Assembly (NCBI GenBank): GCA_026709935.1
Contig: JAPOSC010000065.1
Span: forward strand, 124,001 to 188,000
Direction: 5' to 3'
Length of the DNA: 64,000 nt
DNA from: Thiotrichales bacterium
GTDB taxonomy: Bacteria > Pseudomonadota > Gammaproteobacteria > HK1
The position numbers were made by a program, and so were the translations under genes. Below the pieces are notes generated by a model, which saw only the letters and a program-made list of their open reading frames with translations, was not told where the DNA came from and searched no databases. Position 1 is the first letter of the stretch; each line of letters starts with the position of its first letter. Below are positions 23,268-63,695 of this stretch, piece by piece.

Positions 23268-25523
23268 TCAGGCGTCCTGGACTTCCAGGCGATCCGCCCG
23301 CTGGAAACCGCGGGGCAGCAGCAACCCGGCCCGTCCGCGTCCGAGCGCATAGTGCGCGAGATCGGATGGCTTCAGGTTGATGTAGCGCTTGCCGGCGTGA
23401 ACGGTGAGCGGCCGGCGCGCGGGCACGACCTCGATATCGACCACGAAATCCTCCCGAGTCTCGGCCTTCGCTCTGGGGATCCGGATGATCTTCACGCCCT
23501 TGCCCCGGGCCAGTCGCGGGAGCTCCACCAGCGGATGGACGAGGAGCTTTCCGGCTCTGGAGACCGCCGCGAGCTGTTCGGCATCCGGATCGGTGACCGG
23601 ACGCGGCACGAGCAGCCTGGCCCCCGGCGTGAGTGAAACGCATGCCTTGCCCGCGCGATTCCTTGACCAGAGATCCTCCAGGCGCACGATGAAGCCGTAT
23701 CCGGCATCCGTCGCGATGACATAGTGCTGGGATGCCGCCCCGATCATGACGCCTTCGAAGGTGGCGCCGTCGGGCGGATTGATGCGTCCCGCCAGGGGCT
23801 CTCCCTGACCCCGGGCGGATGCGAGGGTGTGGGCCGGGACGCAGTACACGCGGCCAGTCGAGTCCAGAAACACCGCAAGCTGGTTGCTGCGGCCCCGGGC
23901 CATGGCCCGGAACACATCGCCGGGCCGGTAGCTCAGCCCCCGTGGATCGATCTCGTGTCCCTTGGCGGCGCGGACCCAACCCCGTTCGGAGAGCACTACC
24001 GTGATCGGCTCGGCCGGCGCAAGGTCGGCCTCTCCGAGCGCCTGCGCCGCATCGCGCTCCACGAGGGGCGAACGACGCTCGTCACCGTAGCGCTCGGCAT
24101 CTTCCAGCAGCTCGCCGCGGACCAGCATCGGCACGCCCTGCTCGCTTTCGAGGATCTCCTCCAGGCGGCGGCTCTCGGCGGCCAGCTCCGACTGTTCGGA
24201 CCGGATCTTCACCTCCTCCAACCGCGCGAGATTGCGAAGCCTCAGATTGAGGATCGCCTCGGCCTGCACGTCGGTGAGGCCGAACCGGCTCATCAGCGCC
24301 GGCCGCGGGTGATCCTCCTGCCGGATGATCGCGATGACCTCGTCGATGTTGAGGAAGGCGACGAGCAACCCCTCCAGAATATGGAGCCGGTCGTTAACCT
24401 GATCGAGGCGATGTTCGGTCCGCCGGCGCACCGTCGCGATCCGGAACTTCAACCACTCCGAGAGGATCGCTCGCAGATCGGCCTGTCGGGGGCGGTTGTC
24501 GAGCCCCACCACGGTCATGTTGACCCGGTAGTTGCGCTCGAGGTCGGTGGTGGCGAACAGATGGGACATCAACCGCTCGACATCGACGCGGTTCGATCGG
24601 GGAACGATGACGAGGCGGGTGGGGTTCTCGTGGTCGGATTCGTCGCGCAGGTCCTCCACCATCGGCAGCTTCCTCGCGAGCATCTGCTGCGCGATCTGCT
24701 CCAGCACCTTCGAGCCCGAGACCTGGTACGGAAGCGCGGTCACGACGATCGCGGCGTCGTCGCGCTCGAACCGCGCGCGCATCCGCACGCTGCCCGACCC
24801 GCTCTCGTACATCGCGACGAGGTCCTGGCGCGGAGTGACGATCTCCGCCTCGGTGGGAAAATCCGGACCACGAACGTTTTCGCAGAGCTCGGCGACGGAC
24901 GCCTGCGGTTGGTCGAGGAGCCGGACGCAGGCGGCGACGGTCTCGCACAGGTTGTGCGGGGGCACATCGGTCGCCATGCCGACCGCGATTCCGGCCGCAC
25001 CGTTGAGCAGCAGGTGCGGAAGGCGGGCCGGGAGCAGTTCCGGTTCGTCGAGCGTGCCGTCGAAGTTCGCGCTCCAGTCGACGGTGCCTTCGCGAAGCTC
25101 GCGCAGCAGGACTTCCGCGAACCGGGTGAGCTTCGCCTCGGTGTAGCGCATCGCCGCGAACGACTTCGGATCGTCGGCGGTGCCCCAGTTTCCCTGGCCG
25201 TCGATCAGCGGATAGCGGATGGCGAACGGCTGCGCGAGCAGCACCATTGCCTCGTAGCAGGCGCTCTCTCCGTGCGGGTGAAACTTGCCGAGCACATCGC
25301 CGACGGTGCGCGCCGACTTCTTGTACTTTGCGCCGGTGGTCAGGCCCAGCTCCGACATCGCGTAGACGATGCGCCTCTGCACCGGCTTCAGTCCGTCACC
25401 GACGTGAGGCAGGGCCCGGTCGAGAATCACGTACATCGAGTAATCGAGATACGCTTTCTCGGCGAAGTCCTTCAGCGGGCGCCGTTCGACCTCGTCGAAA
25501 TCGAATGTCATGCCTGTCTGCAT
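23268..25523 (-). CDS. parC: DNA topoisomerase IV subunit A
   Basis: Decatenates daughter chromosomes. The 751-residue protein has the active-site Tyr127 ([10 protein letters not shown]), the quinolone-resistance region [11 protein letters not shown] with Ser87 and Glu91 (equivalent to E. coli Ser80 and Glu84, that is, the susceptible-type residues), and a C-terminal beta-pinwheel of moderate length. The start is ATG 25523 or ATG 25511 (MTFDFDEVE). It lies 23 bases before efp and 44 bases after parE on the same strand. Confidence 0.96.
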
Positions 25524-25567
25524 TCCAGCGACGACCGGAGAGTGATGAATCAGACCGGGCGACCGAC

Positions 25568-27454
25568 TCAGAGATCAGCGAGATTGCCGTCGCGTTCGAG
25601 CCACGCGCGCCGATCCGAGGCGCGCTTCTTCGCGAGCAGCCGGTCGACGGCCTCGTCGGTGTCGTCGCCGGGCGCGACGGTGAGCCGGACGAGGCGCCGG
25701 GTCTCGGGCGCGATGGTAGTTTCGCGAAGCTGCAGCGGGTTCATCTCGCCGAGACCCTTGAACCGCTGCACATTCGCCCGTCCCTTGAATTTCTCCGCCG
25801 CAATCCGGTCGAGAATGCCCTTCTTCTCGTCGTCGTCGAGAGCGTAGTACACGTTCTTGCCGGCGTCGATCCGGTACAGGGGCGGCATCGCCACGTGGAC
25901 CCGGTCGTCCAGCACCAGCGAGCGGAAGTGCCGGAGGAACAGCGCACAGAGCAGGGTCGCGATGTGGGCACCGTCGGAGTCGGCATCCGCGAGGATGCAG
26001 ATCTTCCCGTAGCGTAGTCCGCTCAGATCACCCGAACCGGGATCGACCCCGACCGCAATGGCGATGTCGTGCACCTCCTGCGACGACAGGACCTGACCGG
26101 ATTCGACTTCCCACGTGTTGAGTATCTTGCCCCGCAACGGCATGACCGCCTGGAACTCGCGGTCCCGGGCCTGCTTGGCGGAGCCGCCGGCGGAATCGCC
26201 CTCGACCAGGAACAGCTCGGTGCGGGCGAGATCCTGCGACGTGCAGTCGGCGAGCTTGCCGGGCAGCGCGGGACCGGAGGTGACCTTCTTGCGCACCACC
26301 TGCCGAGCGGCGCGCATGCGAAGCTGGGCGCTGGCGATCGCGATCTCGGCGATTCGATCCCCCGTGTCCGGATGCTGCCCCAGCCACAGACTGAACGCGT
26401 TCTTGACCACTCCCGAAACGAACGCCGCGCATTCCCGGGACGAGAGCCGATCCTTGGTCTGTCCGGTGAACTGCGGCTCGTTCATCTTCACCGACAGCAC
26501 GTACCGGCAGCGCTCCCAGATGTCTTCAGGGGCGAGCTTCACCCCGCGCGGCAGCAGGTTGCGGAACTCGCAGTACTCACGCAGGGCCTCCAGCAGTCCG
26601 GCCCGGAAGCCGTTGACATGAGTGCCGCCCAGCGGCGTGGGAATCAGGTTGACGTAGCTCTCGGTGGGCCCCTCCCCTCCCTCTTGCAGCCATATCGCCG
26701 CCCAGTCCGCCGCCTCGGTGTTGCCCTCCATGCTTGCGACGAACGGAGATTCCGGAACGAAGTCGGCCGTCTCCAGCGCATCCTTCAGGTAGGCGGCGAG
26801 ACCGTCCTCGTAGTGCCACTCACTCCGTTCGCCGCTCGCTTCGTTCTCGAACGACACCCGCAGCCCCGGACAGAGCACCGCCTTGGCGCGCAGAGTGTGG
26901 AGGAGCCGCGGAATCGAGAATTTCGGCGAGTCGAAATAGCGTCCGTCGGGCCAGAAACGGATCGTCGTTCCCGTATTCCGGCGTCCGACGGAGCCGACCA
27001 CTTCAAGCGCCTCGACCTTCTCTCCGCTTTCGAAGGCCATCGCGTACTCGCCACCCCCGCGTTTCACGCGGACCTCCAGGCGTCGCGACAGCGCATTGAC
27101 CACGGACACCCCGACCCCGTGAAGCCCACCCGAGAACCGATAGCTTCCCTGCGAGAACTTCCCCCCGGCGTGGAGCCGGGTGAGGATGAGCTCCACCCCG
27201 GGGACGCCCTCCTCGGGATGGATGTCGACGGGCATCCCGCGGCCGTCGTCGACCACCGTCAGCGAATCATCGGCGTGGAGGACGACAGCGAGACCGGTCG
27301 CCTGTCCGACGATGGCCTCGTCGACGCTGTTGTCGATGACCTCCTGTGCGAGGTGGTTCGGCCGCGCCGTATCGGTATACATGCCGGGGCGCTTGCGAAC
27401 CGGGTCGAGCCCGGCCAGGACTTCGATCGAGGCGGCGTCGTAGAGCGTATTCAT
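25568..27454 (-). CDS. parE: DNA topoisomerase IV subunit B
   Basis: ATPase subunit of topoisomerase IV. The 628-residue protein follows E. coli ParE along its whole length: ATP-site residues NSVDEA and [25 protein letters not shown] acidic residues EGDSAGGSA and DADSDGAH, and the C-terminal [13 protein letters not shown] 27454 is chosen because the protein then starts [19 protein letters not shown], aligning with the E. coli start; two other start codons lie 4 and 13 codons upstream. Confidence 0.96.
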
Positions 27455-27597
27455 GGCCGGAGTCATTGTCCGACATCGACCGTACGGACACAATCTGTTG
27501 TGTCCGCATTACGGTGGCGCCACGACATGGTGTGCTCTCGCCAGGATCGCCTGCAATCCGGAGGCGCAAGCGCCGGCCGGCGCGGGGGGAGGCAGCC

Positions 27598-28176
27598 TCA
27601 GTCGAGATCCGCGATCAGCGCGGCGCGTGACGCTTCGGACGGCGTGCAGTCGTGGTGGTAGTCGTCGTGCTCGATGACGAATCTCATCGTCGCGCCCTCT
27701 CCGAGCGCAGCGCGCATCCGGTCCGAGAGCTCGAATCGCAGGAAATGCACGGCGGAGGTCTTGTCGTCCGTCGTCCGGTCCAGGTCCTCGTCGGCCACGG
27801 CGTGGACGCGCTCTCTCCCGACCTCGATCCAGACCCGATCCTCGATGCCCCGGAGCCGGCCAAGCATGCGCCGGCGCTCGTCCGCATCCTCGTACTCCAG
27901 CATGAACGTCGCCTTGAGGTTGGCGCCGTCGGGGATCAGCGGATTGTAGGCGGCAAGTTCCTCGTCGATCGCCTCGGCCTCGAAGATCCGCTCGACCCGG
28001 AGTATCTCCTGGATCTGATACTGGATGGTCAGCCGATCCTCGAAGTACAGGGTCGCGTTCGGCCCGAGCGGCACCTGCCGGAGCCGCTTGTGCGCGAGCA
28101 CGCGAGTTCGGAACTCGGCCCGGTGATCGTGATACCGCTCCAGGGTGTACAGATCGGCGCGCGTGAGTTTGTCCAT
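27598..28176 (-). CDS. DUF3501 family protein
   Basis: Function unknown. The 192-residue soluble protein begins MDKLTRADLYTLERYHDHRAE, the conserved start of DUF3501, and contains KRLRQVPLGPNATLYFEDRLTIQYQIQEILR and a His/Asp-rich tail (EHDDYHHDC) that could bind metal. It is 3 bases after the Fe-S oxidoreductase gene and therefore almost certainly in its operon, with rubrerythrin just upstream. DUF3501 is known from genome surveys to travel with these two genes; the biochemical role is not established. Confidence 0.85.
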   Translation of the reverse strand: MDKLTRADLYTLERYHDHRAEFRTRVLAHKRLRQVPLGPNATLYFEDRLTIQYQIQEILRVERIFEAEAIDEELAAYNPLIPDGANLKATFMLEYEDADERRRMLGRLRGIEDRVWIEVGRERVHAVADEDLDRTTDDKTSAVHFLRFELSDRMRAALGEGATMRFVIEHDDYHHDCTPSEASRAALIADLD

Positions 28177-28179
28177 CGG

Positions 28180-29556
28180 TCAGATCCCATAGGCCTTGCG
28201 CAGCAGCGACATGGGCGCCATCGGGGTGGAGCCGTCGCCAAGGGTGTTCCCGATATGGTGGGCGGCCATGATGCAGTCGCTGGTGTAGTAGTCGGCCTTC
28301 GACTCCGCCACCCTGCGCGCGGCCGGGCGCGCAATCTTGACCGCGATCTCGTGGAATTCCTTCTTCACCGCGTAGGTGCCATCGTGGCCGGAGCACCGCT
28401 CGATGACGCTGATCTCGGTGTCCGGAACCAGCGCGAGCACGTCGCGCGTCTTCATGCCGATGTTCTGCACCCGCTGATGGCAGGCAGCGTGGTAGGCGAC
28501 CTTTCCGAGTCCTGACCGGAAGTCGGTGCTCAGGAGGCCGTCGCGGTGTCGCAACATGAGGTATTCGAAAGGATCGAAGAACGCCGTCCGTACCTTCTCG
28601 ACCTCCGCGTCGTCGGGAAACAGGAGAGGAAGCTCCTGCTTGAACATCAGCACGCACGAGGGAACGGGGGCGACGAGATCCCATCCGTCATCCACCAGGC
28701 GGGCCAGCTCGGGAATATTGACCTCCCTGGCCCGCGCCACGGCATCGAGATCCCCCAGTTCCAGTTTGGGCATGCCGCAGCACTGCTCCCGCGGGGGGAT
28801 GGTGACGGGAATGCCGTTATGCTCGAACACCCGCACGATGTCCTCGCCGACGTGCGGCTCGTTGTAGTTCGCGTAGCAGCCCGCGAACAGCGCCACCCGG
28901 CCGTGTGTATGCGCGGTCGGAACCACCTCCGACTCGGACGGCGGGCGCGAACGCAGCCGGCTGCGCAGGGGTTTCGATGCGTAGGGTGGCAACTGCGCGT
29001 CCCGGTGCACTCCAAGCACAGATTCGAGGACCGCTCGCGCCGGCTTCGACGCGTTGGCGGTGTTGACCAGTGGAGCAATGACCGGCTTCGCGGCCAGGGT
29101 CCCGACGGCGTCGGTCGAGCTGAGCGTCCGGTTGCGGAATCCGGCGCCCTGCTGTCGATGCTTCACCGCCTTGGCCCGCAACATCAGATGCGGGAAATCC
29201 ACGTTCCACTCGTGCGGCGGAACGTAGGGGCACTTGGTCATGAAGCACATGTCACAGAGGTAGCAGTGGTCGACGACCTTCCAGTAGTCGGACTTCGCAA
29301 CCCCATCGAGTTCCATGGTCTCGGACTCGTCGACGAGGTCGAACAGGGTCGGAAAGGCGTGACAGAGGTTGAAGCACCGGCGACAACCGTGACAGATGTC
29401 GAACACGCGCTCCAGCTCCGCGAACAGGTCGGCCTCATCGTGGAATTCGGGGCTCTTCCAGTCGAGCGGATGGCGCTGCGGTGCGTCCAGGCTTCCTTCG
29501 CGGCGGTCGACCTGGGGGTTGGCCTGGGTGGTGGTGTGGACGGTGGTATCGGTCAT
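28180..29556 (-). CDS. Heterodisulfide-reductase/GlpC-like Fe-S oxidoreductase
   Basis: Predicted cytoplasmic or membrane-associated electron-transfer protein. The 458-residue product has two [4Fe-4S] motifs: C55-C58-C61-C65 (ICHGCRRCFNLCH) and C98-C101-C104-C109 (CYLCDMCFMTKCP). The C-terminal half has one good CCG-type motif (AGCYANY...EQCCGMPKLE) and a second, degenerate one (ACHQRVQN...ERCSGHDG, Ser replacing one Cys). This layout is that of GlpC/HdrB-like proteins. The first cluster ends in CH rather than CP. The substrate is unknown. It is in tight operon with the DUF3501 gene and 268 bases downstream of rubrerythrin. Confidence 0.85.
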   Translation of the reverse strand: MTDTTVHTTTQANPQVDRREGSLDAPQRHPLDWKSPEFHDEADLFAELERVFDICHGCRRCFNLCHAFPTLFDLVDESETMELDGVAKSDYWKVVDHCYLCDMCFMTKCPYVPPHEWNVDFPHLMLRAKAVKHRQQGAGFRNRTLSSTDAVGTLAAKPVIAPLVNTANASKPARAVLESVLGVHRDAQLPPYASKPLRSRLRSRPPSESEVVPTAHTHGRVALFAGCYANYNEPHVGEDIVRVFEHNGIPVTIPPREQCCGMPKLELGDLDAVARAREVNIPELARLVDDGWDLVAPVPSCVLMFKQELPLLFPDDAEVEKVRTAFFDPFEYLMLRHRDGLLSTDFRSGLGKVAYHAACHQRVQNIGMKTRDVLALVPDTEISVIERCSGHDGTYAVKKEFHEIAVKIARPAARRVAESKADYYTSDCIMAAHHIGNTLGDGSTPMAPMSLLRKAYGI

Positions 29557-29824
29557 GACGGAAGCAATGGCGCTCGGGCCGGCCTCATTTCATGGATAGC
29601 TTTGTGGATGGATTTCGCGAGTACGGAACAAATGCCCAGCAACTGCGCTGGCAACACACGACCGACCGCACCAGATTGATGCAGCCGGTCGCGTTCAGGC
29701 TCCAGTGGGTGTCCACAAGCGCGGATCAGCCCGCAGTGACCTCACTGTGATGGTTTCTTCATTCGAACCGACGGCGAGGCTGCGGGTCCAACCGCCGGCC
29801 ACGGCGCCCGGAAGAACCACCAAC

Positions 29825-30244
29825 TCAGGCGTCGAGGTTGTCGAGAGCCTTCTGGAAACGGTTCGCATGGGACCGCTCGGCTTTCGCGAGAGTCTCGAAC
29901 CAGTCCGCGATCTCGTCGAATCCCTCGTCGCGCGCGGACTTCGCCATGCCCGGGTACATGTCGGTGTACTCGTGCGTCTCACCGGCGATCGCCGCCTTGA
30001 GGTTGTTGGAGGTGTTGCCGATGGCAAGACCCGTCGCCGGATCGCCGACGGCTTCCAGATACTCCAGATGGCCGTGGGCATGCCCAGTTTCCCCCTCCGC
30101 GGTCGAACGGAAGACGGAGGACACGTCGTTGTATCCCTCGACATCCGCCTTCTGGGCGAAGTAGAGATACCGCCGATTCGCCTGCGACTCGCCAGCGAAT
30201 GCATCCTTGAGATTCTGCTCCGTTCTGCTTCCCTTGAGCTCCAT
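29825..30244 (-). CDS. Rubrerythrin-like diiron protein without rubredoxin domain
   Basis: Likely peroxide-scavenging or iron-handling protein. The 139-residue four-helix protein has the rubrerythrin diiron ligands E19, E52-x-x-H55, E89, E92 and E123-x-x-H126. The C-terminal rubredoxin domain (CxxC pairs) of classical rubrerythrin is absent; there is no Cys at all, so an external electron donor would be needed. The Fe-S oxidoreductase next door is a natural candidate. A candidate promoter lies about 95 bases upstream. Confidence 0.88.
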
Positions 30245-30336
30245 GAGTGGTTCTCCGTGGCTGTTGGCTGCGGAACGTCCACGGGCCGGGATTGCATGCC
30301 ATGGACGCGAATTGGACTGATTCCAAATCGATCATG

Positions 30337-30365
30337 AGGCTACTATCGGCCCCAGGCACTGTCAA
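30337..30365 (-). promoter_or_regulatory. Candidate promoter of the rubrerythrin cassette
   Basis: Minus strand TTGACA (30360-30365, perfect -35), a 17-base spacer and TAGCCT (30337-30342, weak -10). The strong -35 with weak -10 would suit an activated promoter, but no activator site was identified. Confidence 0.45.
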
Positions 30366-30557
30366 TGCGTCCGGCCGAGCCGCGGCCAAATCGATGGGGA
30401 CGACAGGCGCCGACGAAGCAGGGTCGCGGGCGACCGGATCGTCCGATGCCCGTCTCCGCATCGCGGTCCGAATCGACACCGGTCGAAGCGTCCGTAACGG
30501 ATTCGATCCGGCGGAAATTGGGCGGAGATCGGACAGAACACCGGGGGTCGAAGGTTC

Positions 30558-30571
30558 GGCGAGTGCTCGCC
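30558..30571 (-). terminator. Short hairpin directly after ispA
   Basis: GGCGAG and CTCGCC arms with a two-base loop start one base after the ispA stop. There is no T-run, so it is at best a weak or factor-assisted terminator. Confidence 0.3.
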
Positions 30572-30572
30572 T

Positions 30573-31460
30573 TCAGCTCTTTCGATCCACGATGAACTCG
30601 GACAGGGCAAGCAGGAAATCCGCGTCGCGGCCCAGAGGCGCAAGCTGCTCGGAGGCTCGTTCGTGCAGGGCGTGCGCGTGCGCCCTGGAGGCATCGAGCC
30701 CGAGCACCGACGGGTAGGTCGGTTTGTCGAGCGCCACGTCCGCCCCCTGCGTCTTGCCGAGCACCTCGGTGTCCCCTTCGATGTCCAGAATGTCATCTCG
30801 TATCTGGAAGGCGAGGCCGATGCAACGCGCGTACTCGTCCAGTCGATCGAGGATCTCCGGGTCACGAGCGCCGGCGCAAAGGGCTCCGAGGCGCACGCTC
30901 GCCCTGATGAGCGCGCCGGTCTTGTGCAGATGCATGTTCTCAAGCTGATCGAGGGTCAGGGTGCGGCCGACCGACTCCAGATCGATCGCCTGTCCTCCGG
31001 CCATTCCTCGCGACCCGCTGGCGCGCGCGAGGACCCGGACGAGTTCGCCCGAATCGGACACCGGAGCATGCGCCAGGGTTTCGAACGCGAGCGCCTGCAG
31101 GGCGTCACCGACGAGCAGGGCGGTCGCTTCGCCGAACGCGCGGTGGCATGTGGGAACGCCGCGACGCAGATCGTCATCGTCCATGCAGGGGAGATCGTCA
31201 TGCACCAGGGAGTAGGCGTGGATGAACTCGACCGCACACGCCGCCGGCTCCATGCACTCCGCTTCCGCACCAAGCGATTCACCGGTGGCGACGGCCAGAA
31301 TGGCGCGGACGCGCTTGCCTCCTCCGAGCACCGCGTATCGCATCGCCTCGTGCAGCCGCAACGGCGGCTCCGACGTCGGCGGCAGCGCACGGTCAAGCAT
31401 CGCGTGCACCCGGCCCTGATAGTCGGAGAGCCGTTCGCGGAACAGAGCCGAATCACCCAT
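30573..31460 (-). CDS. ispA: (2E,6E)-farnesyl diphosphate synthase
   Basis: Makes farnesyl diphosphate from IPP and DMAPP/GPP for quinone, undecaprenyl and heme O synthesis. The 295-residue prenyltransferase has the first Asp-rich motif HDDLPCMDDDDLRRG (D88-D94 region), the second FQIRDDILDIEG, and GGGKRVR at 46-52. It lies 15 bases after xseB. In E. coli dxs follows ispA; here dxs is 6.7 kb away on the other strand. Confidence 0.95.
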   Translation of the reverse strand: MGDSALFRERLSDYQGRVHAMLDRALPPTSEPPLRLHEAMRYAVLGGGKRVRAILAVATGESLGAEAECMEPAACAVEFIHAYSLVHDDLPCMDDDDLRRGVPTCHRAFGEATALLVGDALQALAFETLAHAPVSDSGELVRVLARASGSRGMAGGQAIDLESVGRTLTLDQLENMHLHKTGALIRASVRLGALCAGARDPEILDRLDEYARCIGLAFQIRDDILDIEGDTEVLGKTQGADVALDKPTYPSVLGLDASRAHAHALHERASEQLAPLGRDADFLLALSEFIVDRKS

Positions 31461-31475
31461 TCGGTGCGAAATCCG

Positions 31476-31721
31476 CTACGCGGAGTCCTCGACAGCATCC
31501 GCCTCGATCGTCGGGGACCCGGTTTCAGCCTCTGCGAGCACCCGAATCCGCTGCTCTGCGTCATCGAGCGCCTTCTGACACCTGCGCGTCAGGTCCATGC
31601 CTCGCTCGAAGAGCTTCAGTGACTCCTCCAGGCTCGGCTCGCCATCCTCCATTCTCTCGACGAGGACTTCCAGCTCCTCCAGCGCCTCTTCGAATGCGGG
31701 CGATGCGTCCTGCTTCTTCAC
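31476..31721 (-). CDS. xseB: Exodeoxyribonuclease VII small subunit
   Basis: Small helical partner of XseA in exonuclease VII, which degrades single-stranded DNA. The 81-residue acidic protein has the family core FEEALEELEVLVERMEDGE followed by LEESLKLFERGM and CQKALDDAEQRI. It sits just upstream of ispA, the usual xseB-ispA arrangement. Its start region is divergent from folE2. Confidence 0.93.
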   Translation of the reverse strand: MKKQDASPAFEEALEELEVLVERMEDGEPSLEESLKLFERGMDLTRRCQKALDDAEQRIRVLAEAETGSPTIEADAVEDSA

Positions 31722-60778: not shown

Positions 60779-60821
60779 AGAGATGACTGCGTCATTGGTT
60801 CAACATGTCGGCGTATGAGCA

Positions 60822-60830
60822 TGGCATACT
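60822..60830 (+). promoter_or_regulatory. Candidate extended -10 promoter for glcDEF
   Basis: TGG followed by CATACT (60825-60830), an extended -10 pattern about 40 bases before the chosen glcD start. The -35 region is weak. Confidence 0.35.
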
Positions 60831-60870
60831 GATGCACCGTCGATCTGGGCGGAATGATGCGTACCACCCG

Positions 60871-62358
60871 ATGAACGAGACGGTGCCCGCTGCAACCCGC
60901 GATACTCGCAAGCGCGACGTGATCGACGCATTCCGCCGCATCCTCCCTTCCGCGTCCGTTCTGCACACCGAGGAGACCCTGAAGCCCTACGAGTGCGATG
61001 GGCTCACCGCCTACCGCCAGGTTCCCCTCGTCGTGGTACTGCCCGATACCGTGGAACAGGTGCAGGAGGTGATGCGTATCTGCACCCGTCTCGGCGTGCC
61101 GGTGGTCGCGCGTGGTGCGGGCACGGGCCTCTCGGGCGGCGCCCTGCCGCTGGCCGACGGGGTGTTGCTGAGCCTCGCGAAGTTCAACCGGATCCTGGAG
61201 GTCGACGCCGTCAACCGCACCGCGCGGGTGGAGCCGGGGGTGCGCAACCTCGCCATCTCCGAGCACGTCGCTCCCCTCGGGCTCTACTACGCGCCGGACC
61301 CGTCCTCGCAGATCGCGTGCAGCATCGGCGGCAACGTGGCGGAGAATGCAGGCGGGCTGCACTGTCTCAAGTACGGGCTCACCGTGCACAACATTCTGGA
61401 ACTCGACGTGATCACCGCCGACGGCGAACGCATCACCATCGGCGGCGGCGCACTCGACTCGCCCGGTTACGACCTGCTTGCGCTGATGACCGGATCGGAG
61501 GGTCTGCTCGGGGTGGTGGTGGAGGTCAGGGTGAAGCTCCTGCCGAAACCCGCCTGCGCGAAGGTGGTGCTCGCGGCGTTCGTGGATGTCGAGAGCGCGG
61601 GCGCGGCGGTCGGCGCCATCATCGCCGAGGGCATTCTCCCGGCCGGACTGGAGATGATGGACAACTTTGCCATCCGCGCCACCGACGACTTCTGCGGCGC
61701 CGGCTATCCGACCGACGCCGCCGCCATCCTGCTCTGCGAGCTCGACGGAGTCGAAGAAGAAACCGAGGACCAGGTCTCGAACGTGCGGTCGGTGCTGGAG
61801 CGCTGCGGGGCGACCGAGGTACGGGTCGCGCGCGACGACGCCGAGCGCGCCCGCTTCTGGATGGGACGCAAAGCCGCCTTCCCCGCCGCCGGGCGCCTCT
61901 CGCCCGACTACCTCTGCATGGACGGCACCATCCCGCGGCGCGAGCTGCCGGCGGTACTCAACCGCATGCAGGCGCTCTCCGACGAATCGGGCCTGCGCAT
62001 CATGAACGTGTTTCACGCCGGCGACGGGAATCTGCACCCCCTCATCCTCTACGACGCGAACGCGCCCGGCGAGCTGGAGCTGGCCGAACGGGTCGGAGCG
62101 CAGATCCTGGAGCTCTGCGTCGAGGTCGGCGGGACCATCACCGGCGAGCACGGGGTCGGAGTGGAGAAGATCGATCAGATGTGCGTGCAGTTCGCATCAC
62201 CCGAGTTGGTCCAGTTCCAGGCGGTGAAGGCCGCGTTCGATCCGGACGGGCGGCTCAACCCCGGCAAGGCGGTGCCAACCCTGCAACGCTGCGCCGAGTA
62301 CGGCGCCATGCACGTGCACGGCGGCAAGCTGCCGTTCGCGGACATCGAGCGGTTCTGA
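60871..62358 (+). CDS. glcD: Glycolate oxidase FAD subunit GlcD
   Basis: FAD-binding subunit of membrane-associated glycolate dehydrogenase, which oxidises glycolate to glyoxylate. From ATG 60871 the protein has 495 residues and follows E. coli GlcD closely: YECDGL, ARGAGTGLSGGALPL, SSQIACSIGGNVAENAGGLHCLKYG, GLEMMDNFAIRA, FHAGDGNLHP and GEHGVGVEKI. Two in-frame ATGs upstream (60805, 60832) are possible starts; none has a clear ribosome binding site. First gene of glcDEF. Confidence 0.94.
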   Translation: MNETVPAATRDTRKRDVIDAFRRILPSASVLHTEETLKPYECDGLTAYRQVPLVVVLPDTVEQVQEVMRICTRLGVPVVARGAGTGLSGGALPLADGVLLSLAKFNRILEVDAVNRTARVEPGVRNLAISEHVAPLGLYYAPDPSSQIACSIGGNVAENAGGLHCLKYGLTVHNILELDVITADGERITIGGGALDSPGYDLLALMTGSEGLLGVVVEVRVKLLPKPACAKVVLAAFVDVESAGAAVGAIIAEGILPAGLEMMDNFAIRATDDFCGAGYPTDAAAILLCELDGVEEETEDQVSNVRSVLERCGATEVRVARDDAERARFWMGRKAAFPAAGRLSPDYLCMDGTIPRRELPAVLNRMQALSDESGLRIMNVFHAGDGNLHPLILYDANAPGELELAERVGAQILELCVEVGGTITGEHGVGVEKIDQMCVQFASPELVQFQAVKAAFDPDGRLNPGKAVPTLQRCAEYGAMHVHGGKLPFADIERF

Positions 62359-62591
62359 GTCGTACCGAGCGCCTCTCCGGCGACAATCCAGAGCACCGAG
62401 CAAGGGCACGATGTCATGGTCTTCGGAACATCCTCTGCCCGGCGGGGCCATGCCGCATCGTCCGCCCCATTGCCCGCCACGTCGTCCGCCATGTCGTCCG
62501 GAAGAATCGCTCGGGGCCCCGCCCGCACGAAATACATCTGCGCCGCCCTGCCGGGTACGACCGGCGACAGTGGACTGACGGACGCAGACCG

Positions 62592-63695
62592 ATGGATGCC
62601 GATCTGAGCGTACAGCTCTGCGAGCGGGTCCGGGCGGCTGCGGCCGACGGGACGCCACTCGCCGTCACCGGCGGCGGGACCAAGGCGTTTCTGGGGCGCG
62701 TCACGCAGGCGGAACGCTTCGACGTCGCCGGCCACCGGGGCATCGTCTCCTACGAGCCGACCGAACTCGTGCTTTCCGCCCGCGGCGGCACCCTGCTGGC
62801 CGAGGTCGAAGCGGCACTCGCAGAGCGGGGGCAGATGCTTGCGTTCGAGCCGCCCGCGTTCGGGGAGACGGCCACTATCGGTGGCACCGTCGCGGCCGGA
62901 CTCTCCGGTCCGGCGCGCCCCTACGCCGGCGCGGCGCGCGACTTCATGCTCGGCACCCGGGTGCTGAACGGCAAGGGCGAGGTGCTGCGCTTCGGCGGCG
63001 AGGTGATGAAGAATGTCGCCGGCTACGACGTATCGCGCCTCATGACCGGCGCCTGCGGTACCCTCGGGGTGCTGCTCGAAGTCTCGCTCAAGGTGCTGCC
63101 GCGTCCGACCGCAGAGCGCACCGTCACCTTCGACACGAGCGCAGCGGAAGCCATCGCGCAGTGCAACGCCTGGGCCGCGAAGCCGCTGCCCCTGACCGGG
63201 GCGTGCCACGACGGGGAGCGGCTCTTCGTGCGGCTCGCGGGGACCAGGAGCGGCGTCGATGCGGCCGCCCGCGAGATCGGCGGTGACTCCGTATCCGACA
63301 CCCCCGATCAGGACCCCGTCGCAGGGAGCAATCGGTGGTGGGCCGCACTGCGCGAGCAGACGCTGCCATTCTTCACCCGGGAGGGGCCACCGTTGTGGCG
63401 TCTCTCGGTACCACCCGGCGCCGCGCCCCTGAACATTGCCGGGGACATCACCGGCGACACCCTCGTCGACTGGGGCGGGGCGCTGCGCTGGCTGCGCACC
63501 GCCGCACCGGCGGTGGAGGTGCGGGCGGCCGCGGAGCGGGCCGGCGGCCACGCGATGCTCTTTCGTGGCGGCGACCGCACTGGCGAGGTGTTCCACCCCC
63601 TTGCTCCGGTCGTCCGCACACTTCACGAGCGCCTCAAGACCGCATTCGATCCGGCCGGTATTTTCAACCCGGGACGAATGTACGAGGGGATCTGA
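62592..63695 (+). CDS. glcE: Glycolate oxidase FAD-binding subunit GlcE
   Basis: Second FAD-binding subunit of glycolate oxidase. The 367-residue protein aligns with E. coli GlcE: TGGGTKAFLGR, HRGIVSYEPTELV, GLSGPARPYAGAARDFMLGTR, GGEVMKNVAGYDVSRLMTG, and the ending FDPAGIFNPGRMYEGI. ATG 62592 gives the same start as E. coli. An open frame of over 500 codons upstream is a shadow of glcD. Unusually, 233 bases separate it from glcD; its stop abuts glcF. Confidence 0.93.
   Translation: MDADLSVQLCERVRAAAADGTPLAVTGGGTKAFLGRVTQAERFDVAGHRGIVSYEPTELVLSARGGTLLAEVEAALAERGQMLAFEPPAFGETATIGGTVAAGLSGPARPYAGAARDFMLGTRVLNGKGEVLRFGGEVMKNVAGYDVSRLMTGACGTLGVLLEVSLKVLPRPTAERTVTFDTSAAEAIAQCNAWAAKPLPLTGACHDGERLFVRLAGTRSGVDAAAREIGGDSVSDTPDQDPVAGSNRWWAALREQTLPFFTREGPPLWRLSVPPGAAPLNIAGDITGDTLVDWGGALRWLRTAAPAVEVRAAAERAGGHAMLFRGGDRTGEVFHPLAPVVRTLHERLKTAFDPAGIFNPGRMYEGI

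Follow-up and report, generated by a model that had tools for sequence, protein, structure and literature searches.

The stretch analysed here, referred to as the window, comprises 64,000 nucleotides of a Thiotrichales bacterium (assembly GCA_026709935.1, contig JAPOSC010000065.1, positions 124,001 to 188,000) and carries on its minus strand three genes that, by their sequences, are a further instance of the RBR-RFO-DUF3501 "aerobic-type rubrerythrin" trio (Cardenas et al., 2016). RBR (29825-30244) is a one-domain, aerobic-type rubrerythrin of 139 amino acids (Pfam PF02915, E 3e-30; PDB relatives 9onm, 4di0 and 1j30). It is followed by RFO (28180-29556), a GlpC/LutA/HdrB-like iron-sulfur (Fe-S) protein of 458 amino acids (Pfam PF02754, E 8e-15), and by the DUF3501 protein (27598-28176; 192 amino acids; Pfam PF12007, E 4e-70; solved relative 3fjv). 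The coordinates bear out the description in an earlier note on this DNA of three genes in one orientation, spaced by 268 and 3 bases. The 268-nt spacer between RBR and RFO (29557-29824) is near the top of the range of 5-302 nt found at 95 loci (redundancy kept). At 30312-30326, 67 nt ahead of the start codon of RBR, is the palindrome TTGGAATCAGTCCAA, which has no strand and is a putative operator. A scan of 27300-30800 for sigma-70 promoters found none, with 0.5 expected. All the traits of the aerobic type are present, i.e., a one-domain RBR without rubredoxin, a DUF3501 and an RFO in the cluster, and the ranking of PDB matches places RBR nearest the sulerythrin/4DI0 group. The trio probably destroys hydrogen peroxide, a predicted peroxidase activity.

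Gene content and order across genomes

Co-occurrence was assessed in 299 genomes of the phylum. The DUF3501 family was found in 17 of them, and the window RBR has a match of at least 81% identity in the same 17, the next being 57% (genome G247) and the rest at most 53%. The window RFO likewise matches at least at 43% identity (at least 373 bits) in these 17 genomes, after which there is a drop to 31% and 146 bits. Two RFO matches under this gap were examined and look like GlpC beside GlpB. In all 17 genomes the coordinates give the order RBR-RFO-DUF3501 on one strand. A second sample consisted of the best 80 of 588 DUF3501-alignment matches, hence close relatives only. The trio has room in 68 of these loci and is complete, ordered and on one strand in 66, one of which (L077) has its RFO split over two frames; at one of the exceptions (L060) RFO and DUF3501 are together and RBR is elsewhere in the genome. 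The association is thus far above chance, in agreement with the earlier statement that the three genes travel together, and a DUF3501 that occurs mostly without its partners, which would speak against a joint system, was not what this neighbourhood survey found. DUF3501 is also present in 122 of 250 genomes of one order, which we take to be Burkholderiales.

The trio is flanked by ispA/xseB and parE/parC (23268-31721 of the window; flanking genes named from their translations), and 27 of the 80 loci above have a long ParE-like match, which makes this a recurrent genomic address. A link to phages, plasmids or anti-phage defense was rejected. None of 50,697 phage records matched DUF3501 (E 1e-5), and the four matches among 72,556 plasmid records are all Burkholderia replicons of 2.4-3.5 Mb. 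PADLOC has no family for RBR, RFO or DUF3501, and PHROGs none for RBR or DUF3501, the two proteins scanned there.

The three proteins and the natural RFO-DUF3501 fusions

Above cut-off, RBR matches only PF02915 and an overlapping Ferritin model, with no rubredoxin domain and no Cys. The earlier characterization as a diiron protein lacking rubredoxin and cysteine therefore holds for the window RBR, but the lack of Cys is no family trait since 19 of 83 relatives have one somewhere. Residues E19, E52, H55, E89, E92, E123 and H126 do not vary among the 83 sequences and are probably the diiron ligands. Sulerythrin E53 and E126 align with E52 and E123; the other five (E19, H55, E89, E92 and H126) we assign to this role on the pattern of rubrerythrins. 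The best PDB matches were 9onm, 4di0, 8fuh and 9onr, then sulerythrin (1j30), with two-domain rubrerythrins far lower.

RFO was previously described as an eight-cysteine protein, a number that covers only its N-terminal dicluster ferredoxin part (C55/58/61/65 and C98/101/104/109). Seven more are found in two CCG domains (PF02754, 55.2 bits, cut-off 20.6), and each of the 15 is invariant in 87 of 87 sequences. The first CCG site is formed by C227, C259-C260 and C301, identical to the four Cys in the GlpC rows of the alignment (L045 and L046). The second consists of C359, C388-S389 and C428, with C-xx-A where GlpC has C-xx-C and C-S where GlpC has C-C. The CSG motif reported at this position is indeed there, but it is not degenerate: residue 389 is Ser in 85 and Ala in 2 of 87 sequences, which rules out decay, and H360 and H391 are present in all 87, the latter being Ile in both GlpC rows. 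A site with C / C-S / C in place of C / C-C / C-xx-C probably holds a cluster unlike that of GlpC. The NCBIfam scores also place RFO outside the GlpC families (238.4 against a cut-off of 278, and 159.5 against 279.9). In the AlphaFold model of a natural RFO-DUF3501 fusion, the RFO part resembles LutA (9a6l), EtfD (9ojn) and HdrB (8rwn, 5odc). Elsewhere in the window (60805-63695) there are glycolate-oxidase-like frames GlcD and GlcE in a row, named from their translations; GlcF, which would likewise carry CCG domains, would if present lie beyond the window edge.

The DUF3501 protein scores 236 bits with its family model (cut-off 25), and the AlphaFold-type confidence is high, as the model of the window protein has a predicted local distance difference test score (pLDDT) of 95.6. 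Its His/Asp-rich tail had been proposed to bind metal. Among 97 sequences only one tail His is conserved (H170, 94/97), together with Y173 (84/97), and conservation of D171, D172, H174, H175, D176 and C177 was looked for and not found, so that a metal-binding tail is unsupported and was ruled out on conservation. Nineteen residues are invariant, 11 of them charged (R19, R33, E46, E57, E62, E73, R101, D131, R134, K139 and D190), and no alignment column has Cys in over half of the rows. This pattern is more in line with a docking part than with a redox protein or a His-rich metal site, a carboxylate metal site being a possible alternative. The only strong fold match is 3fjv (VIA-align Z 26.9), all other VIA-align rows having Z ≤ 7.0 and Foldseek giving no other match at E ≤ 0.001, and hence the fold provides no functional hint.

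RFO and DUF3501 are fused in nature. In one genus, which we take to be Nitrosomonas, 33 of 50 DUF3501-bearing genomes have an open frame of at least 660 codons around DUF3501 (counted by hand), and both proteins share one stop-free frame in 24 of the 29 loci checked and not in the other 5. The linker between them varies. Such a fusion in Nitrosomonas was already published in 2016 (PMC5114695). The DUF3501 part of the fusion model resembles 3fjv. The predicted template modeling score (pTM) of this model is 0.69, linker residues 445-465 have pLDDT below 50, and the output gives no inter-domain error estimate; for these reasons we claim no RFO-DUF3501 interface. Some DUF3501 rows of its alignment seem misplaced near the linker. 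Across 22 loci, distances among DUF3501 and RFO sequences are correlated after controlling for ParE (4 of 500 permutations; partial r 0.33).

The palindrome upstream of RBR and its candidate regulators

The comparison of 84 non-redundant RBR upstream regions yielded the palindrome TTTAGA-N5-TCTAAA, the core of which (TTAGA-N5-TCTAA) is exact in 41 of them. A position weight matrix (PWM) derived from these regions scored 50 of the 84 higher than the 99th percentile of 1680 Markov controls, and 48 exceeded the control maximum. The exact core occurs 40 times in the 1.19 Mb of the 80 loci, and 38 of these copies are within 300 nt upstream of RBR. The window site reached 12.0 with an independent PWM (1% threshold 7.9), slightly below the maximum of 12.14 among 1620 controls, and 17.5 with a PWM that included the window locus (control maximum 15.8). 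The palindrome has the same form as the Irr box (ICE) of Alphaproteobacteria, the consensus of which is TTTAGAANNNTTCTAAA. Unlike the alphaproteobacterial box, it fronts the soluble RBR trio, often in loci titled Gammaproteobacteria.

A search for the strict palindrome in 31 genomes (24 picked through motif-bearing trio loci and 7 from the 299-genome sample) gave 26 sites versus 6 for a reversed control, 17 of the 26 being at RBR. By Pfam, the other nine are found at one catalase, one KatG, one diheme cytochrome c peroxidase, two genes for 2,3-bisphosphoglycerate-independent phosphoglycerate mutase (iPGM) and four places with no clear target; as the palindrome has no direction, the gene on the opposite side could be the target. 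In L278 (site 1501) and L282 (site 1696) it lies 3 and 33 nt before iPGM, with an ArsR-like gene opposite. A genome without the trio has an Irr-like gene, then a site scoring with the PWM and then an AhpC-type peroxiredoxin (L235). Just upstream of the trio in L053 (5371-5402) two adjoining palindrome cores precede a KatG with a probable signal peptide. In the genome that the window belongs to, a weaker site, TTAGACATTATCGAA, follows the Irr-like gene on its 3' side where contig C63 ends (L211) and recurs at the start of contig C10 (L217).

The genome of the window has three Fur-family genes, i.e., Fur, a Zur-like gene and the Irr-like gene L211, for which IrrA (113 bits against a cut-off of 150) and Irr (108 bits against 170) are the top two NCBIfam families. 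When the 299 genomes were searched with L211, 9 of the 17 trio genomes gave a match at E ≤ 1e-15 (the list had been seen when this limit was set); of the other eight, two had weaker matches near 1e-9 and six had none. Four of the 17 (G139, G008, G032 and G016) have the Irr-like gene co-oriented with RBR and 117-282 nt upstream of it, the G139 match spanning one stop. In G247 (L238, 1474-2614), a genome with no DUF3501 and no close RFO, the 57%-identical one-domain RBR is directly downstream of an Irr-like gene. With a PWM trained on 67 regions of named genomes only, the motif is present in 7 of the 9 Irr-positive trio genomes and in none of the remaining 8 (Fisher p 0.0019). These data are suggestive of an Irr-like protein as the putative regulator at the RBR palindrome, whose identity as a repressor and sign of action we infer. 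Known Irr targets include the rubrerythrin-like mbfA and ccpA (PMC3413700, PMC7762939). Among the open-access titles and abstract openings listed for Irr, the Fur family or mutants of the trio, no Irr-trio link was found, and a published prediction is possible.

At 10 of 67 loci an OxyR-like gene lies no more than 4 kb from the trio. OxyR was the best NCBIfam model in all six scanned (under cut-off) and a C-x8-C pair is present in 11 of 11. The palindrome is found in 0 of the 10 OxyR-flanked loci versus 42 of the 57 others (p 1.3e-5). OxyR has been reported beside trio genes in Sideroxydans (PMC7852563).

A proposed peroxidase pathway and its alternatives

We read these computational observations, i.e., the genes and their co-occurrence, the conserved ligands, the natural fusions and the palindrome with its company of peroxidases, as probably, although with substantial doubt, reflecting a peroxide-inducible diiron peroxidase for which RFO would be the electron donor and DUF3501 a docking part. 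Peroxide, or the iron/heme status, would relieve repression by an Irr/PerR-type member of the Fur family acting at the palindrome before RBR, OxyR probably taking the role of the regulator in other lineages. H2O2 would then oxidize the diiron site of RBR, itself becoming water, and RFO would re-reduce RBR with its Fe-S clusters replacing the missing rubredoxin domain, while DUF3501 would be a non-redox docking or assembly part holding RFO to RBR. That the Fe-S protein is a reasonable candidate donor, as the earlier note considered, has likewise been proposed in the literature (PMC5114695). Among one-domain relatives, ferriperoxin of Hydrogenobacter thermophilus uses NADPH and FNR to reduce H2O2, and the knockout strain does not grow aerobically (PMC3317640), the reaction of sulerythrin is fast with H2O2 and very slow with O2 (PMC12851003), and the Burkholderia pseudomallei RBR is said to be expressed during oxidative stress (PMC12585693).

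Several observations weigh against this proposal. Regarding regulation, 34 of the 84 upstream regions fall under the PWM threshold, the window copy is a degenerate form of the palindrome, and two motif copies precede phosphoglycerate mutase, which is not a peroxide gene. L211 is beneath the NCBIfam Irr cut-offs, and the after-the-fact threshold that defines the Irr-positive genomes has to be added to this. Two of the nine lack the motif despite irr adjoining RBR, and 56 of the 65 genomes with an Irr-like gene (E ≤ 1e-15, hand count) have no trio. A tree-aware test leaves 4 independent pairs for the Irr-motif association, with a mean of 3.8 in agreement (p 0.125), and with only four pairs the link is suggestive, not proven. 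The OxyR-palindrome contrast gives 3 pairs on the tree, mostly uninformative; with so few independent contrasts, lineage may explain much of the difference. Regarding donation by RFO, the path from RFO to RBR, the source of the electrons of RFO and the role of DUF3501 are what we infer. The partial correlation between DUF3501 and RBR is -0.15 (22 loci), a value that is uninformative since RBR varies too little. RBR is next to DUF3501 with RFO elsewhere in the genome in L090, RBR is directly followed by DUF3501 with no RFO between them in L179, and 25 genomes have RBR and DUF3501 only (Cardenas et al., 2016; PMC5114695). The only donor shown experimentally for a one-domain relative in the literature consulted is NADPH via FNR, in ferriperoxin (PMC3317640), so RFO is not strictly needed in vitro.

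These last facts, the activity of ferriperoxin and the loci and genomes without an intervening RFO, would also be expected if the RBR peroxidase received its electrons through a general NAD(P)H-FNR/ferredoxin route and RFO and DUF3501 served in assembly, metal loading or repair. We regard this as unlikely: in keeping with a redox enzyme, RFO retains all 15 Cys across 87 sequences, and in the 299 genomes a close RBR (at least 81%) never occurs without a close RFO. It is improbable that the trio handles iron in place of peroxide, with RBR as a small ferroxidase or metal binder that removes excess Fe(II), hence the Irr-type operator. The Irr-box-like palindrome before RBR, the control of the iron exporter MbfA by Irr (PMC7762939), the binding of Mn, Co and Fe by the B. 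pseudomallei RBR (PMC12585693) and the 1.57-fold increase of Pelagibacter rbr under iron limitation (PMC2864753), weak and arguably in the opposite direction, would suit it, but several non-RBR motif copies are before peroxidases or a catalase, there are OxyR neighbors, the ferriperoxin knockout has an aerobic phenotype (PMC3317640), and a ferroxidase needs no Fe-S partner. Finally, that RFO is the main enzyme, reducing a thiol, disulfide or persulfide at a CCG site like HdrB while RBR only protects it from peroxide, would agree with the HdrB/LutA/EtfD fold and GlpC-kind CCG domains but is very improbable, as close RFO is found only alongside RBR in the 299 genomes and the loss of the second Cys of CC and the last Cys of CxxC from the second site makes an HdrB-type double active site unlikely.

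The peroxidase proposal can be extended to a broader one that we consider possible but doubtful. The Irr-like Fur-family protein outside Alphaproteobacteria would be a peroxide (or heme-plus-peroxide) sensor with the RBR trio as its commonest target and catalases, cytochrome c peroxidase and peroxiredoxin as others, and the uncommon three-Cys (plus His/Ser) site in the second CCG domain of RFO would feed cellular electrons via DUF3501 to a rubredoxin-less peroxidase.

Since 2016 the trio has been recognized in many aerobes, but the papers found only propose functions for RFO and DUF3501. A conserved operator, a candidate regulator and a natural RFO-DUF3501 fusion make the pathway open to direct testing, and the conserved CSG site points to residues for mutation. 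Among known systems, GlpC, LutA, EtfD and HdrB have in common with RFO the two CCG domains and the fold, and GlpC also the N-terminal dicluster part. Alphaproteobacteria share Irr-like genes, the regulator proposed here scoring under the Irr cut-off. Sulerythrin (1j30) and the B. pseudomallei rubrerythrin (4di0, 9onm) are like the window RBR in sequence and in diiron ligand residues, and their PDB entries list rubrerythrin chains only, with no RFO or DUF3501 partner. Ferriperoxin is a one-domain RBR with the peroxidase activity and aerobic role predicted here (PMC3317640); it differs in its NADPH-FNR donor, in place of the RFO proposed for the window, and in that the H. thermophilus RFO gene is apart from the ferriperoxin gene (PMC5114695). 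The closest system is the trio found in 185 of 4461 genomes by Cardenas et al. (2016; PMC5114695), with RFO proposed as a rubredoxin replacement. It has the same three families, order, single strand and near-perfect co-occurrence, and its gene set is no different from that of the window. The trio was later called a "functional module", and all three proteins were reported with predicted mitochondrial targeting in a protist and also in other eukaryotes (PMC7050145). In the accessible text of PMC5114695 we did not find the operator/regulator link, the conserved CSG site or the lack of a conserved metal tail. What is added here to the known trio is the link of an operator to a candidate regulator and a corrected anatomy of its proteins.

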